DNA of 64,000 nucleotides from an uncultured bacterium (lineage in GTDB: Bacteria; Cyanobacteriota; Vampirovibrionia; Gastranaerophilales; Gastranaerophilaceae): assembly GCA_949290355.1 (NCBI GenBank), contig CASERN010000008.1, positions 124,001 to 188,000 of the forward strand, read 5' to 3'. Shown piece after piece: positions 14,875 through 61,192 of the stretch. The notes below the pieces were generated by a model. The model made no database searches and was not told the DNA's origin. It saw only the letters and a list, made by a program, of their open reading frames with translations. Each line of letters starts with the position of its first letter. Position 1 is the first letter of the stretch. The position numbers and the translations under genes are program-made.

Positions 14875-15306
14875 TTAAGATGCAAAGATGCTAAGAAGCA
14901 TAGATGCATAGTCATTTACGTTAAAATTTTAGTTCGTAAAGCATTTAACATTCTTGACAATTCATTAATATCCTGCTTTACAGTATTAAAATCTTCTATG
15001 TAGTTTAATTTAACCGCAATTGCTAAAGCAACTTCAACTTCAATTAATGAAGCAGATGCAATATTTAAAAAGTGTGCGAATTCATTTGCACTAAAACTGC
15101 TTTTTCCTTCAGCAATATTCAAAGGAACAGACACTATTGCTCTTTTTATTTGCGATTTTAAATTATAATCTTCTGATTTAGGCAAAGTATCACAAATTTT
15201 ATAAATTTCAGGAACTAAATCCATTGCTTTTTGCCAAACTTTTAATTCCTTATACATTATAGCTCCTATGAAACAGACTTTGCCTCTTTACATCTTTGCA
15301 TCTTAG
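14875..15306 (-). mobile_element. Candidate four-helix-bundle cassette 1 with inverted repeat arms
   Basis: The gene at 14916-15257 lies between two 29-base arms (14875-14903 and 15278-15306) that are inverted repeats of each other at 24 of 29 positions, with a 15-base perfect core TAAGATGCAAAGATG. Each arm is built of short degenerate GATGC-type units. One arm lies upstream of rfbD. The other encodes the last residues of rfbB (DAKMQRCKEAK), as expected if the segment was inserted at the rfbB 3' end. Mobility is inferred from structure; no transposase is present. Confidence 0.55.
14916..15257 (-). CDS. Four-helix-bundle protein (23S rRNA intervening-sequence / S23 family), copy 1
   Basis: The 113-residue helical protein carries the family hallmarks: KVWQKAMDLVPEIYKIC at the start, YNLKSQIKRAIVSVPLNIAEG in the middle, and a FAHFLNIASASLIEVE helix. 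The family is best known as ORFs within intervening sequences of 23S rRNA genes, as stand-alone proteins of unknown function, and as relatives of the Avd protein of diversity-generating retroelements. Here it sits inside the rhamnose operon, 8 bases after the rfbB stop. It is clearly paralogous to the 16340-16693 protein. Confidence 0.88.
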   Translation of the reverse strand: MYKELKVWQKAMDLVPEIYKICDTLPKSEDYNLKSQIKRAIVSVPLNIAEGKSSFSANEFAHFLNIASASLIEVEVALAIAVKLNYIEDFNTVKQDINELSRMLNALRTKILT

Positions 15307-16290: not shown

Positions 16291-16737
16291 AGAAGAACAG
16301 AAGTCAGGAAGGCAAGAAGACAAGCTATTTTCATAAAAATTACTCATCATTTCCCTCCGACAACTTTCTTCTTAACGCATTTATTCTTTTTGTTAATACT
16401 TTATTTTTTTCATGTATATCTGCTAAATTTTGCAAAAAACCTAATTCTTCGCAAATTGTTAATACAACATCCACTTCATCCATAGATGCAGCAGCAATAT
16501 TTAGAAAATGAGAAAAATCTTTTGATGAAGCACGACATTTTCCCTCTGCAATATTTAGAGGTACTGATACAATAGCGCGTTTTAGCTGACTTTTTAAGTT
16601 GTATTCTTCTGATTTTGGCAACTTATCAGCTAAAGCATACACATCTTTTAATAAATCAATACTCTCACGCCAGATTTCTAATTTTCTATACATTAAAGAG
16701 CTTGACCTCCTGACATCTTCTCTTCTGCCAGACTGCC
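16291..16737 (-). mobile_element. Candidate four-helix-bundle cassette 2 with inverted repeat arms
   Basis: The second four-helix gene lies between arms at about 16291-16326 and 16699-16737 that are imperfect inverted repeats. Reading outward-in, both contain AGAAGA, AGAAG, TCAGGA, GG and CAAGCT in that order, with an 8-base gap in one. The right arm encodes the C-terminus of rfbC (AEEKMSGGQAL). The left-arm 18-mer CAGGAAGGCAAGAAGACA (16305-16322) recurs exactly in priA at 58459-58476, and the right-arm 14-mer AGCTTGACCTCCTG (16699-16712) recurs in priA at 58566-58579. Confidence 0.55.
16340..16693 (-). CDS. Four-helix-bundle protein (23S rRNA intervening-sequence / S23 family), copy 2
   Basis: The 117-residue paralogue of the 14916-15257 protein has the same signature (YNLKSQLKRAIVSVPLNIAEG, FSHFLNIAAASMDEVD). 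Its ATG overlaps the rfbC stop by one base (TAATG), so it is translated by coupling inside the rhamnose operon. Function is unknown for the family; a nucleic-acid-binding pentameric bundle is known for related Avd proteins. No reverse transcriptase or template repeat is visible in the window, which argues against a diversity-generating retroelement. Confidence 0.88.
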   Translation of the reverse strand: MYRKLEIWRESIDLLKDVYALADKLPKSEEYNLKSQLKRAIVSVPLNIAEGKCRASSKDFSHFLNIAAASMDEVDVVLTICEELGFLQNLADIHEKNKVLTKRINALRRKLSEGNDE

Positions 16738-17277
16738 AAAAATCTCTTTAAGAGATTTTTGATTCTTATCTTTTTCAGACAAAATAGGTTCAAAATCAAT
16801 ACCCCAATCAATATTTATATCTTTATCGCACCACAAAACACCTCTGTCAGCTTGAGGCGCATATTCACCGCTTGCTTTGTATAATAATTCTGCTTCATCT
16901 GACAACACAACAAAGCCATGTGCAAACCCTTCAGGTATAAATAGCATATACTTATTTTCTTCTGACAATTCAACTTTTACATACTGACCAAAAGTTTCAG
17001 ATTCTGGTCTAATATCGACAGCAACATCATAAATTCTACCGCGTCCGCATCTTACAAGTTTTGCTTGCCCGTGTGGCTTTTCTTGGTAATGCAGGCCTCT
17101 TAAGACATGAGCAGTTGATTTAGAATGGTTATCCTGATTAAATTCAACCTCTATCCCATTTTCATAGAAATCAGATTTTTTATAACTTTCCATAAAAAAT
17201 CCTCGATTATCGCCAAAAACTTTTGGCTTAACTAAAATTACATCTTTAATCTTTTGCGGTTCAAATTCAAACGGCAT
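16693..17277 (-). CDS. rfbC: dTDP-4-dehydrorhamnose 3,5-epimerase
   Basis: Cupin-fold third enzyme of dTDP-L-rhamnose synthesis and first gene of the operon. The 194-residue protein shows VFGDNRGFFMESYKKSDF, the catalytic-His region STAHVLRGLHYQ, KLVRCGRGRIYDVAVDIR and FIPEGFAHGFVVLSDEAEL. The final residues (AEEKMSGGQAL) are encoded by a repeat arm and look unlike a native RmlC tail. An AAGGAGATGAG ribosome-binding region precedes the ATG. The four rfb genes together make dTDP-rhamnose for LPS or another envelope glycan. Confidence 0.95.
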   Translation of the reverse strand: MPFEFEPQKIKDVILVKPKVFGDNRGFFMESYKKSDFYENGIEVEFNQDNHSKSTAHVLRGLHYQEKPHGQAKLVRCGRGRIYDVAVDIRPESETFGQYVKVELSEENKYMLFIPEGFAHGFVVLSDEAELLYKASGEYAPQADRGVLWCDKDINIDWGIDFEPILSEKDKNQKSLKEIFGSLAEEKMSGGQAL

Positions 17278-57523: not shown

Positions 57524-57760
57524 ATGGCTGATGCAAAAATCTTAGCAACCATCGAAAGAAGTGAAACTGAACAATTACAAATCTCAGTTAGTGAATATAA
57601 AGGGAGAAGTTACTTGAATATGAGAATATTCTACACAACTGATGACGGTGCAACTTGGCTTCCAACTAAAAAAGGTGTAACTTTTTCACCTGATCAGCTT
57701 GATTTGTTAGAAGAAGCTATCCAAGAAGCTCGTAAAGAATTTATGTCAGAAGCTGAGTAG
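57524..57760 (+). CDS. PC4/YdbC-like ssDNA-binding protein, 78 aa
   Basis: The small protein matches the transcriptional coactivator p15 (PC4) domain pattern: EQLQISVSEYKGRSYLNMRIFY in outline, then DDGATWLPTKKGVTFSPDQ and LDLLEEAIQEA. Bacterial members bind single-stranded DNA and are often near replication or recombination genes. Here it precedes priA by 56 bases on the same strand, with AAGGAGAG before the ATG. The link to replication restart is by neighbourhood only. Confidence 0.85.
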   Translation: MADAKILATIERSETEQLQISVSEYKGRSYLNMRIFYTTDDGATWLPTKKGVTFSPDQLDLLEEAIQEARKEFMSEAE

Positions 57761-57815
57761 GTATTTTACCTACTCCTTCTATTTTTAAATTATTTTTTAA
57801 TTTAAAGGAGGTTTT

Positions 57816-60167
57816 TTGAGCAAATACGCATCAGCACTTGTAAATATTAAAGGTTTGGGAGTTAAGACATTTAGCTACTTAATTCCTGATGAAATGCAAA
57901 ATAAAATTAAAATTGGTCAAGCAATACTTGTACCTTTTGGGCGACAAGGGCTGATTAATGCTTTCTGTGTTGGATTTTCAGATTATTTACCGGGGGATTT
58001 CAAAGTAAAAAAAATTAATAAAATCCTTGATGAAACCCCTCTTTTTTCTATTGAATATTTAAAACTTCTTGAGTGGGTGGCAAATTATTATTGTTGTGAT
58101 TTGGTAACTGTTTTAAATGCTGCTATTCCAATGAAGTTAATTGAAAAAGCTTCAAAAACAGAACAATTAATTGAATTTGTAAAATATGACGGAGCAACAA
58201 AAAGACAAATTGAAGTTTTACAATTGCTTGAAAAATCAGGGAAAATGCCTCTTATTTTGTTTGAAAAATATGCAAAAACAACAAGAGCAACAATTAAAAA
58301 ACTTGAGCAATTGGGTTGTGTACAACTTATTCAAGAAGAATTATACAGAAACCCTCTTGATATTTTAAGGATTACTGAAAGAGAGGCGTTATTTGAACTT
58401 TCAGGAGATCAAAAGAAAGTTTATGAAGGAATTAAAAGACTTATAGAGGGCAAGATGACAGGAAGGCAAGAAGACAGGCCTGTTTCGAATGAAGAAGAAC
58501 TAAGAATAATAGAGCAAGATGATGAGAAAGTTATTGAAAATAAAGTTGTGCACAACACCGACAATAGCTTGACCTCCTGTCATCCTTCCCTCTGTTCTTC
58601 TTCACCTGAAATCCTTCTTCATGGTGTTACTGCATCCGGCAAAACTGAAGTTTATTTCAAACTTATTGATGACACCATAAAATCTGGGAAAAACGTCCTT
58701 TTCCTTGCTCCTGAAATTGCGCTTGCATCACAGTTAACAAAACGCCTTGCAAAAAAATTTGGGACAAAAGATGTAGCAATTTGGCACAGCAGTATATCAG
58801 ACGGTGAAAGATATGATGTTTGGCAAAAACTTTATAAAGATGAAATAAAAATTCTTGCAGGAGCAAGATCTGCTGTTTTTGCCCCTTTGAAAAATATCGG
58901 TTTAATAATTATAGATGAAGAACACGAAAGTGCATATAAACAAACAACCCCTACACCAAGATATGATGCCAGAGTAGTTGCCAAAAAGTTATCTGAATTT
59001 CATAACTGCCCGCTTCTTTTAGGTTCGGCAACTCCTGATATTTCAACTTATTATAAAGCTTTAAATACAAAAAATCTTTTTGAATTAAAAAAACGATATA
59101 ATGATGCAAAAGTTCCGCCTGTAACTGTTATAAATATGCAAGAACATGGAAGAGCGGCTTACAAAAGTGTAATTTCTATTCCTCTGCAAACAGAAATTAA
59201 AGAAACTCTTGAAAAAGGACAGCAAGTAATACTTTTGATAAATAGACGCGGTTTTTCAACTTTCACACAATGTCAGGCCTGCGGACATGTAATTGAATGC
59301 CCAAATTGTGCAATTCCAATGATTTGGCATTCAAAAGATCAGATGCTCAAATGTCATTACTGCAACCACAGTGAATATTTCCCTGATACTTGCCCAGAAT
59401 GCGGTTCCGATGCTTTTAAAAACAGCGGTACAGGAACTCAAAAAATTGAACAGTATATAAAAGATATTTTTCCTGAAAATAATGTTGAACGTATAGACAG
59501 CGATATTTTAGTACGTAAGGGAGAACATATAAGATTATTAGAAAAATTCCAAAAAGGGGATATTGATATATTGGTTGGAACGCAGATGATTGCCAAAGGT
59601 CTTGATAATCCAAATGTTACGCTTGTTGGAGTAATTTCTGCAGATGCAAGTTTTAACCTGCCTGATTTTAGAGCATCAGAAAGAGGGTTTCAACTTCTCA
59701 CACAAGTTGCAGGCCGTGCAGGGAGAGGAGAATTTGCAGGAAAAGTTCTATTCCAAACATACAACCCTGATTTTTATGCACTTGAAAGTGCTAAATCGCA
59801 AAACTATCTGGAATTCTATACAACAGAAATTGCAGCAAGAGAAGAATTTGATTATCCGCCTTTTAGTCAAATTATTAGGTTAATCCTAAGTTCTCAAAAT
59901 AATTTTCGTGCAGAAAAATCATCACAAGAAATAGCACTTAGGCTATGTACGATGATAGAAAAATTTGGGATATCAGAAAGAATTGAAATTCTCGGACCTA
60001 CCCCTTGTGTAATTGAAAGAATTAACGGGCAATATAGATTCCAAATCATTATCAAAAATAAATTAGGACAAAAAGGACATCAATTTATTTCAAGTTTTTT
60101 AAATAAAATAATTATGCCAAAAGACATAAAACTAGCTATAGATGTAGACCCCCTTGATATCCTTTAA
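57816..60167 (+). CDS. priA: Primosomal protein N' (replication restart helicase PriA)
   Basis: 783-residue 3'-5' helicase that reloads the replisome at stalled forks. The TTG start follows AAAGGAGG. Domains are the 3'-end binding and winged-helix region (1-190), Walker A GVTASGKTEV, DEEH box, GSATPDIST, the zinc-binding Cys array (CQACGHVIECPNC, CHYCNHSE, CPECGS) and GTQMIAKGLDNPN. An extra hydrophilic segment of about 50 residues (roughly 212-264) lies between DQKKVYEGI and Walker A. It is encoded by repeat-like DNA also found around the four-helix gene at 16340-16693. Confidence 0.95.
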   Translation: MSKYASALVNIKGLGVKTFSYLIPDEMQNKIKIGQAILVPFGRQGLINAFCVGFSDYLPGDFKVKKINKILDETPLFSIEYLKLLEWVANYYCCDLVTVLNAAIPMKLIEKASKTEQLIEFVKYDGATKRQIEVLQLLEKSGKMPLILFEKYAKTTRATIKKLEQLGCVQLIQEELYRNPLDILRITEREALFELSGDQKKVYEGIKRLIEGKMTGRQEDRPVSNEEELRIIEQDDEKVIENKVVHNTDNSLTSCHPSLCSSSPEILLHGVTASGKTEVYFKLIDDTIKSGKNVLFLAPEIALASQLTKRLAKKFGTKDVAIWHSSISDGERYDVWQKLYKDEIKILAGARSAVFAPLKNIGLIIIDEEHESAYKQTTPTPRYDARVVAKKLSEFHNCPLLLGSATPDISTYYKALNTKNLFELKKRYNDAKVPPVTVINMQEHGRAAYKSVISIPLQTEIKETLEKGQQVILLINRRGFSTFTQCQACGHVIECPNCAIPMIWHSKDQMLKCHYCNHSEYFPDTCPECGSDAFKNSGTGTQKIEQYIKDIFPENNVERIDSDILVRKGEHIRLLEKFQKGDIDILVGTQMIAKGLDNPNVTLVGVISADASFNLPDFRASERGFQLLTQVAGRAGRGEFAGKVLFQTYNPDFYALESAKSQNYLEFYTTEIAAREEFDYPPFSQIIRLILSSQNNFRAEKSSQEIALRLCTMIEKFGISERIEILGPTPCVIERINGQYRFQIIIKNKLGQKGHQFISSFLNKIIMPKDIKLAIDVDPLDIL
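58449..58606 (+). mobile_element. In-frame repeat insertion in priA, empty-cassette-like
   Basis: The segment begins with a tandem pair GGCAAGATGACAGG / GGCAAGAAGACAGG and ends with AGCTTGACCTCCTG and related sequence. The left 18-mer and right 14-mer are identical to the two arms of four-helix cassette 2 and in the same order. Between them lie about 90 bases with no four-helix gene. GATGACAGGA also occurs inverted at both ends. It is read through in frame by priA. Confidence 0.55.
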
Positions 60168-60238
60168 AAAAACTTTAATTTTGTATAATAAAATTTTTAT
60201 AATATAATAATATAGCTAGATAAAGGGGGATATTAATA

Positions 60239-61192
60239 ATGGCAAAAAATAGAATAGGAATAGATGTTGGCGGTACTAACGTAAAAATAGCACTTGTAGA
60301 TAATAAAGGTAATATTATCTATTCAAATTCTGTACCGACTCGTGCCGAAATGGGATATGAGTATACAGTAAATAACATTAAACAAGCTATATATGATTTG
60401 ATGAAAGAAACAAAACTTTCTACAAAAGATATTGAAGGTATAGGTTTCGGTTTCCCCGGTCAAGTCGATTACAAAGCCGGAATTGTAAGAAATGCTCCTA
60501 ATATTCCAGGTTGGGTTGAAGTTCCTATTGCAAAACTTATCGAAGATGAATTTCATATACCAACTCGTGTTGATAATGACGTAAGATGCGCAGCATTAGG
60601 GGAATTAAATTATGGAGCAGGCAAAGGATGCGAAAATCTTATCTGTATTACTGTAGGGACAGGCATAGGATCTGGACTTATCGTGAACGGAAAGCTTGTC
60701 AGAGGTGCATCAAATGCTGCAGGTGAAATTGGTCATATAAAACTCCAAATGGATGGCGGACCTCTTTGCGGATGCGGAGATACAGGATGTTTGGAAGCTT
60801 TTGCCTCAGGACCTTCTATTGTCGCTATGGCAAATGATTATATTAAAGGCGGCAAATCTGCTAAATTCAGAGAAATGGCAGAAGGCGGAGCTATTACTCC
60901 ATATATTGTTTGTGAAGCAGCTAAAGCAGGAGATCCTGTTGCTAAAAGAATTTTCACAATCATGGGTGAATATATAGGAATAGGACTTGCTAGTGTCGTA
61001 AATCTCCTAAATCCTGAAAAAATTATAATAGGCGGTGGTGTTGCTGATGCAGGGGATATACTTCTTGCTCCTTTGACAGAAACTCTTAAAAAACGTGCAA
61101 TGAAAATTGCAGGTTCTGCAGTACAAGTTGTTCCTGCAGAATTGGGAAATACCGCAGGGGTAATAGGTGCAAGTCTTTTAATCGAATCATAA
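60239..61192 (+). CDS. glk: ROK-family glucokinase
   Basis: 317-residue sugar kinase. ATP site RIGIDVGGTNVKIALVD, sugar-binding DNDVRCAALGELNYGAG, the ROK signature GEIGHIKLQMDGGPLCGCGDTGCLEAFAS in outline with zinc Cys residues, and IIIGGGVADAG. This arrangement is typical of ATP-glucokinases of glycolysis. AAAGGGGG precedes the ATG. It is followed after four bases by holA. With pfp it outlines the glycolytic entry. Confidence 0.92.
   Translation: MAKNRIGIDVGGTNVKIALVDNKGNIIYSNSVPTRAEMGYEYTVNNIKQAIYDLMKETKLSTKDIEGIGFGFPGQVDYKAGIVRNAPNIPGWVEVPIAKLIEDEFHIPTRVDNDVRCAALGELNYGAGKGCENLICITVGTGIGSGLIVNGKLVRGASNAAGEIGHIKLQMDGGPLCGCGDTGCLEAFASGPSIVAMANDYIKGGKSAKFREMAEGGAITPYIVCEAAKAGDPVAKRIFTIMGEYIGIGLASVVNLLNPEKIIIGGGVADAGDILLAPLTETLKKRAMKIAGSAVQVVPAELGNTAGVIGASLLIES

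Follow-up and report, generated by a model that had tools for sequence, protein, structure and literature searches.

The PriA protein encoded in the window, by which we mean the whole 64,000-nucleotide stretch of DNA analysed here, from a species of Candidatus Gastranaerophilales (gut Melainabacteria), carries an extra segment just ahead of Walker A, and the question that this locus raises is what the segment is and how it came to lie within a conserved gene. A sequence-only reading had seen in it the ends of cassette 2, an element of the rfb cluster, and had proposed a MITE-like relative that inserted without breaking the frame. The host protein has the Pfam domains PriA_3primeBD, DEAD, Helicase_C, Zn_ribbon_PriA and PriA_C, and also matches PriA structures in the PDB. 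The features of the locus are:

57816..60167, + strand: priA, the host gene, 783 aa, TTG start
58446..58607, + strand: in-frame insert in priA, residues ~211–264, defined against the empty alleles L039, L040, L042, L048 and L057
58446..58478, + strand: left arm of the insert, a purine-rich degenerate octamer array (GAGGGCAAG ATGACAGG AAGGCAAG AAGACAGG)
58479..58565, + strand: middle of the insert (PVSNEEELRIIEQDDEKVIENKVVHNTDN), homologous in L032, L033, L034 and L038
58566..58601, + strand: right arm of the insert, an inverted octamer array with the terminus CTGTTCTTCT, as in cassette 2

The peptide crossing the insert is TGRQEDRPVSNEEELR. PriA relatives align to residues 1–212 and 261–783 of the window protein, with little or nothing between. 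The insert lies in the loop that leads from the helix QKKVYEGIK to the strand EILLHG preceding Walker A (LLHGVTASGKTE), and this loop is 75 aa long in the window versus 23–28 aa in the empty alleles, order-level outgroups included. As most relatives have empty alleles, the extra segment is an in-frame insertion, which bears out that part of the sequence-only reading; it is ~160 nt long with terminal inverted repeats, adds a net 50 aa, and leaves the priA reading frame open and unbroken. That reading would have been undone by a segment alignable in distant relatives, and the outgroups at order level are without one. These empty outgroup alleles also disfavour a segment ancestral to the order and lost elsewhere. 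AlphaFold models the insert as disordered (pLDDT 23–31) between a well-modelled helix and the Walker A strand, and the predicted structure therefore makes it likely that the insert is a surface loop.

The resemblance to cassette 2 is exact at both ends. The 18-mer CAGGAAGGCAAGAAGACA occurs at 16305–16322 and 58459–58476 and the 14-mer AGCTTGACCTCCTG at 16699–16712 and 58566–58579, in all four cases on the + strand, as had been reported; by chance, 0.03 sites are expected per window for the 18-mer (three mismatches allowed) and 0.14 for the 14-mer (two mismatches allowed). In priA, 89 bases separate the two end copies and contain no four-helix ORF, again as described. The rfb cluster holds the counterparts that carry a gene:

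16291..16726, no strand: cassette 2 element, with the ends AGAAGA...TCTTCT, between rfbB and rfbC
16340..16693, − strand: four-helix-bundle gene of cassette 2, 117 aa, PF05635 23S_rRNA_IVP, E 1.4e-29
16693..17277, − strand: rfbC, whose final ~12 codons (AEEKMSGGQAL) are cassette arm
14876..15305, no strand: cassette 1, with the second IVP gene of the rfb cluster (14916–15257, − strand)

The rfbC stop overlaps the IVP start (TAATG), and because the arm supplies the C-terminal residues of RfbC, cassette arms are coding at this site too. At the rfbC–rfbB junction, a cassette with the same end type is complete in six genomes, one with other ends is present in G019, those of G024 and G017 are truncated, and the junction is empty in others, G001 and G015 among them. 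No target-site duplication was seen by eye at rfbC–rfbB when full and empty alleles were compared. The ends of cassette 1 are octamer-array inverted repeats too, with a sequence unlike that of cassette 2 (GATGCAAA..).

The two ends in priA are related to each other, a point beyond the sequence-only reading. The arms are imperfect inverted repeats (AGAGGGCAAGATGACAGGAAGGCAAG versus the reverse complement AGAGGGAAGGATGACAGGAGGTCAAG), with an inverted-repeat score of 19 against a maximum of 12 in 200 shuffles, and the left arm has a lag-8 periodicity (z 3.7). The ends are octamer arrays, not fixed terminal sequences. Among the IVP cassettes of the group, the arm sequences differ, yet the strongest internal periodicity is 8 nt in 16 of 19; in the remaining three it is 7, 14 or 9 nt.

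Copies of the end motif were located by pattern search in the window genome (1.85 Mb, 14 contigs), where 13 matches with at most one mismatch were found versus none for the reversed pattern; across 33 genomes of the genus, 397 matches were found versus 27 for the reversed control. Matches inside the ORFs L009 and L010 look like chance single motifs, and we set them aside. The priA segment has the ends of cassette 2 without its gene, and the same ends form gene-less hairpins elsewhere in the genome, as a non-autonomous relative of the cassette would have. Many genomes with an empty priA have no end-motif match at all, and genomes with an IVP-type priA insert have more copies than those with an empty priA (p 0.003–0.005, which is indicative, as species are phylogenetically non-independent). 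For the DUF559-type ends described below and for a heptamer type, there are tens of end copies versus a handful of genes per genome.

These results bear on whether the segment could have grown de novo, by slippage of purine-rich repeats in a native linker, the match to cassette 2 being low-complexity convergence. Such growth would suit arms that are degenerate octamer arrays and the tandem in-frame growth seen in G007 (L038), and ordinary length change does occur in some clades, whose 34-aa and 40-aa loops have no inverted repeat and were left uncounted as ordinary loops. Slippage, however, yields no inverted copy on the far side; the 18-mer and the 14-mer are shared exactly with cassette 2, the dispersed family is matched far above the reversed control, and the cassette 2 site has clean full and empty alleles. 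We consider de novo expansion improbable.

The MITE label is partly earned by the window insert. Like MITEs, it is short, has terminal inverted repeats, is multi-copy and has no gene of its own, and the insertion, the frame and the gene-less ends all stand as proposed; unlike MITEs, it has a variable octamer-array end. No target-site duplication was seen by eye between full and empty priA alleles (old insertions may have lost one), and we could link no transposase to the ends. The gene-carrying partner that was found with matching ends has the IVP four-helix gene, not a transposase, and to our knowledge the IVP protein is no known mobility enzyme.

How an array of octamers can persist in a coding sequence may follow from its composition. 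The repeat (RRGRCAAG)n was computed to be stop-free in all six frames with one eight-residue cycle per strand, RARGQEGK on one and LPSCLPAF on the other, and both types are seen in PriA. Since eight bases do not make a whole number of codons, each frame gives the same peptide, and this frame-independent, stop-free peptide may explain why (RRGRCAAG)n is tolerated inside genes; most other octamer types contain stops. Two further proteins of the group hold such peptides. In a TyrA-like (prephenate dehydrogenase-like) protein, L012/L248 (G000:C11:130065-130823, − strand), a loop is longer by seven residues with the octamer array KEDKKTRGQE, which is absent from G031 and G006. In a glycosyltransferase, L011/L278 (G000:C11:90968-92044, − strand), octamer-type peptides occur in some species in the loop preceding IAHMPS, and G015, G003 and G008 have heptamer-type peptides instead (FTLHTSHFTLH); this loop is a second in-frame hotspot.

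The history of the priA site was surveyed in 122 PriA loci, which give 96 distinct loop sequences, some loci being one genome in two collections. In most of them there is no insert in the loop, and this holds for every other family of the order whose sequences were read. IVP-type arms are found in the window clade (L031–L038, L041, L052 and L054) and in the distant G042 (L122/L210; inverted repeat p<=0.005), where the insertion is independent of that in the window clade. A complete DUF559 ORF lies in frame in the loop of four species (G002, G019, G021 and G024), with ends in PriA that read PSPAGGEG...PLPLRERVGVRG; this hotspot for whole DUF559 genes had likewise gone beyond the sequence-only reading. 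DUF559-type ends without a gene are present in L175 and L184, and L045 retains a short degenerate DUF559 remnant. All distinct filled alleles are in frame and stop-free between the anchors. On a PriA tree (97 sequences, loop excluded; a quick tree with many weak branches), the loop changes between filled and empty at least 12 times, and the four DUF559 alleles fall in four separate places.

Because the insert is common to several relatives, the idea of a single recent insertion fails for the window copy: relatives share the segment, with tandem expansion in G007 and decay. The inverted repeat is no longer significant in L034, L035 and L037, and part of the distribution is vertical inheritance with decay. 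The insert of G007 (L038/L136) is a mosaic, with window-like outer ends and inner tandem units like those of G016 (L033), a pattern in the sequence that suggests recombination between alleles. Other PriA loops, in L136, L146 and L163 (PriA C-terminal third), hold in-frame inserts of other repeat types, with KEIPDLVRNDEYK as that of L146. Window-type inserts have a dN/dS of ~0.5–0.9 (small counts) versus 0.04 for host PriA, and we propose that they may evolve almost neutrally.

DUF559 is also found outside priA. It lies in frame at the same place within an M14-type carboxypeptidase of three species (L099, L109 and L127). Four more loci (L092, L113, L128 and L114), each from a different species, have it at the ksgA–ispE junction, with an in-frame ispE fusion in three.

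The DUF559 alleles of priA bring in another explanation of the recurrent filling, namely homing: non-splicing selfish inserts would reach the same priA site via the DUF559 nuclease, or, for the IVP type, through recombination that relies on homology in the priA flanks, and gene-less copies would be degenerate forms or passengers. We regard this as a serious possibility that falls somewhat short of an even chance. In one species pair only, L044 and L049, is the insert younger than the host (dS 0.11 versus 1.10), with insert dS like host dS in other DUF559 pairs, which speaks against homing as a general account. In this pair, 10 of 154 insert codons differ at third positions versus ~38% elsewhere (p 1e-15); the inserts have short identical flanks and an abrupt change at the edges, and their hosts are not sisters. 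In a DUF559 tree, the priA-resident copies form one clade (97/94) and those at the ksgA–ispE junction form their own (98/97, including L114), which indicates that DUF559 lineages keep to their site, but the M14-resident copies form no clade. Taken together, near-identical inserts in diverged hosts and a single priA-resident clade imply, as far as sequence can tell, that the DUF559 variant of L044 and L049 underwent horizontal, probably homing-like, spread. The dN/dS of the DUF559 inserts in priA (0.16–0.22) indicates a nuclease held by purifying selection, as homing would predict, and the catalytic-type motif DF..IELDGGQH is conserved in four of four; the degenerate form in L045 also fits. The AlphaFold model of a DUF559-carrying PriA is poor as a whole (pTM 0.36), with only the DUF559 domain usable (pLDDT ~77–89).

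For the window insert itself, the case for homing is different. Of 56 third positions compared between the inserts of L031 and L038 (G007), 5 are different, versus 0.35 downstream (p 7e-5), and those of the sister hosts L033 and L038 are more diverged than this pair, in keeping with movement between hosts. However, the ~65 codons upstream of the L031 and L038 inserts are also similar (0.14–0.17), and since the similarity includes this stretch, ordinary recombination suffices; the sign of horizontal spread is weaker than for the DUF559 variant. No DUF559 gene was found in the window genome, so DUF559 homing is no direct explanation of the window insert.

It could further be asked whether mature PriA contains the segment at all, as it would not if this were an intervening sequence that is spliced out or excised (as an intein, intron or RNase III-excised IVS would be). 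The priA segment folded as RNA gives a strong predicted hairpin (−42.6 kcal/mol, z −3.2), and the IVP family takes its name from 23S rRNA intervening sequences. Against an intein, ~50 aa is far below intein length (over ~130 aa) and Pfam found no intein or splicing domain; against an intron, positions 57700–60300 hold no Rfam family at gathering score, a weak match to DLEU2_4 under that score being taken as chance. Splicing, moreover, needs no conservation of frame, yet every distinct filled allele keeps frame without a stop, and excision by RNase III would sever the transcript. We judge removal of the segment highly improbable.

We are left with the reading that the window segment is very probably an in-frame, gene-less, MITE-like member of a family with inverted octamer arrays, residing in a hotspot loop of Candidatus Gastranaerophilales. 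Gene-carrying members of the family hold a 23S-IVP-type four-helix protein, as in cassette 2. Elements would enter the priA loop by copying or recombination, possibly mobilised by a factor acting in trans, and (RRGRCAAG)n arrays would persist easily by giving the same open eight-residue peptide whatever the frame. As PriA is needed, selection would leave only in-frame, stop-free products. PriA and its insert would be translated as one protein, with a disordered or extra-domain loop, and spread between species would go through recombination or homing.

Several known systems resemble parts of this picture. The Rickettsia palindromic elements are reportedly those of Ogata et al. in 2000. They are ~100–150 bp long, dispersed, and inserted in frame within conserved protein genes at positions predicted to be surface-tolerated (PMC2229807, PMC10969869). 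The present elements are likewise palindromic, dispersed, gene-less and in frame in conserved genes (PriA, TyrA and a glycosyltransferase), a likeness of description; they differ in belonging to another phylum, in their octamer-array ends, in having a gene-carrying IVP form in the same genome, and in recurring at a hotspot in one protein loop that accepts whole nuclease genes. ShiLan, in a phage DNA methylase, is a non-splicing in-frame insert that encodes an endonuclease, has evolved in a homing-like manner and, by prediction, loops out (PMC11855218). Its HNH nuclease is in another frame, whereas in priA, a bacterial gene, the DUF559 nuclease shares the frame of the host and lies within inverted-repeat bounds, and the window copy encodes no nuclease. 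The Coxiella IVS is a 23S rRNA intervening sequence with an IVP gene (PMC4990558); cassette 2 shares the PF05635 gene and long inverted-repeat ends, whereas the elements here lie in protein genes and operons, not in 23S rRNA. PARCEL coding palindromes are reportedly intragenic tandem repeats of surface-type proteins (PMC2996958), similar to the present elements as palindromic coding repeats in proteins and unlike them in that the insertion here is into a replication helicase.

The kind of element is thus already known, and it is the combination of features that stands out. In the limited literature searched, we found no description that brings together a recurrent hotspot, octamer ends that are open in any frame and nuclease genes lying in frame, and nothing on point for DUF559 with inverted repeats or for IVP genes as mobile cassettes. 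More tentatively, and as a possibility that we rather doubt, PriA of gut Melainabacteria may house a non-splicing homing system, in which DUF559 cassettes, translated in frame as an added domain, would spread from species to species into this one site, decay to their ends, be lost and return, gene-less octamer-array elements would share the loop, and frame-independent ends would permit life within a gene.

For in-frame mobile DNA in conserved proteins there is the Rickettsia precedent, mostly of scattered cases. Here, one PriA loop in dozens of related species presents all stages: empty, gene-less ends, tandem expansion, nuclease gene and remnant. The loop is therefore a natural system in which to study how mobile DNA gives conserved proteins new segments or domains, and it also allows in-gene homing by non-splicing nucleases and the tolerance of end sequences to be tested. 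With the octamer-array ends, the IVP (four-helix) and DUF559 genes, which are widespread yet unexplained, gain a first rule at the sequence level.
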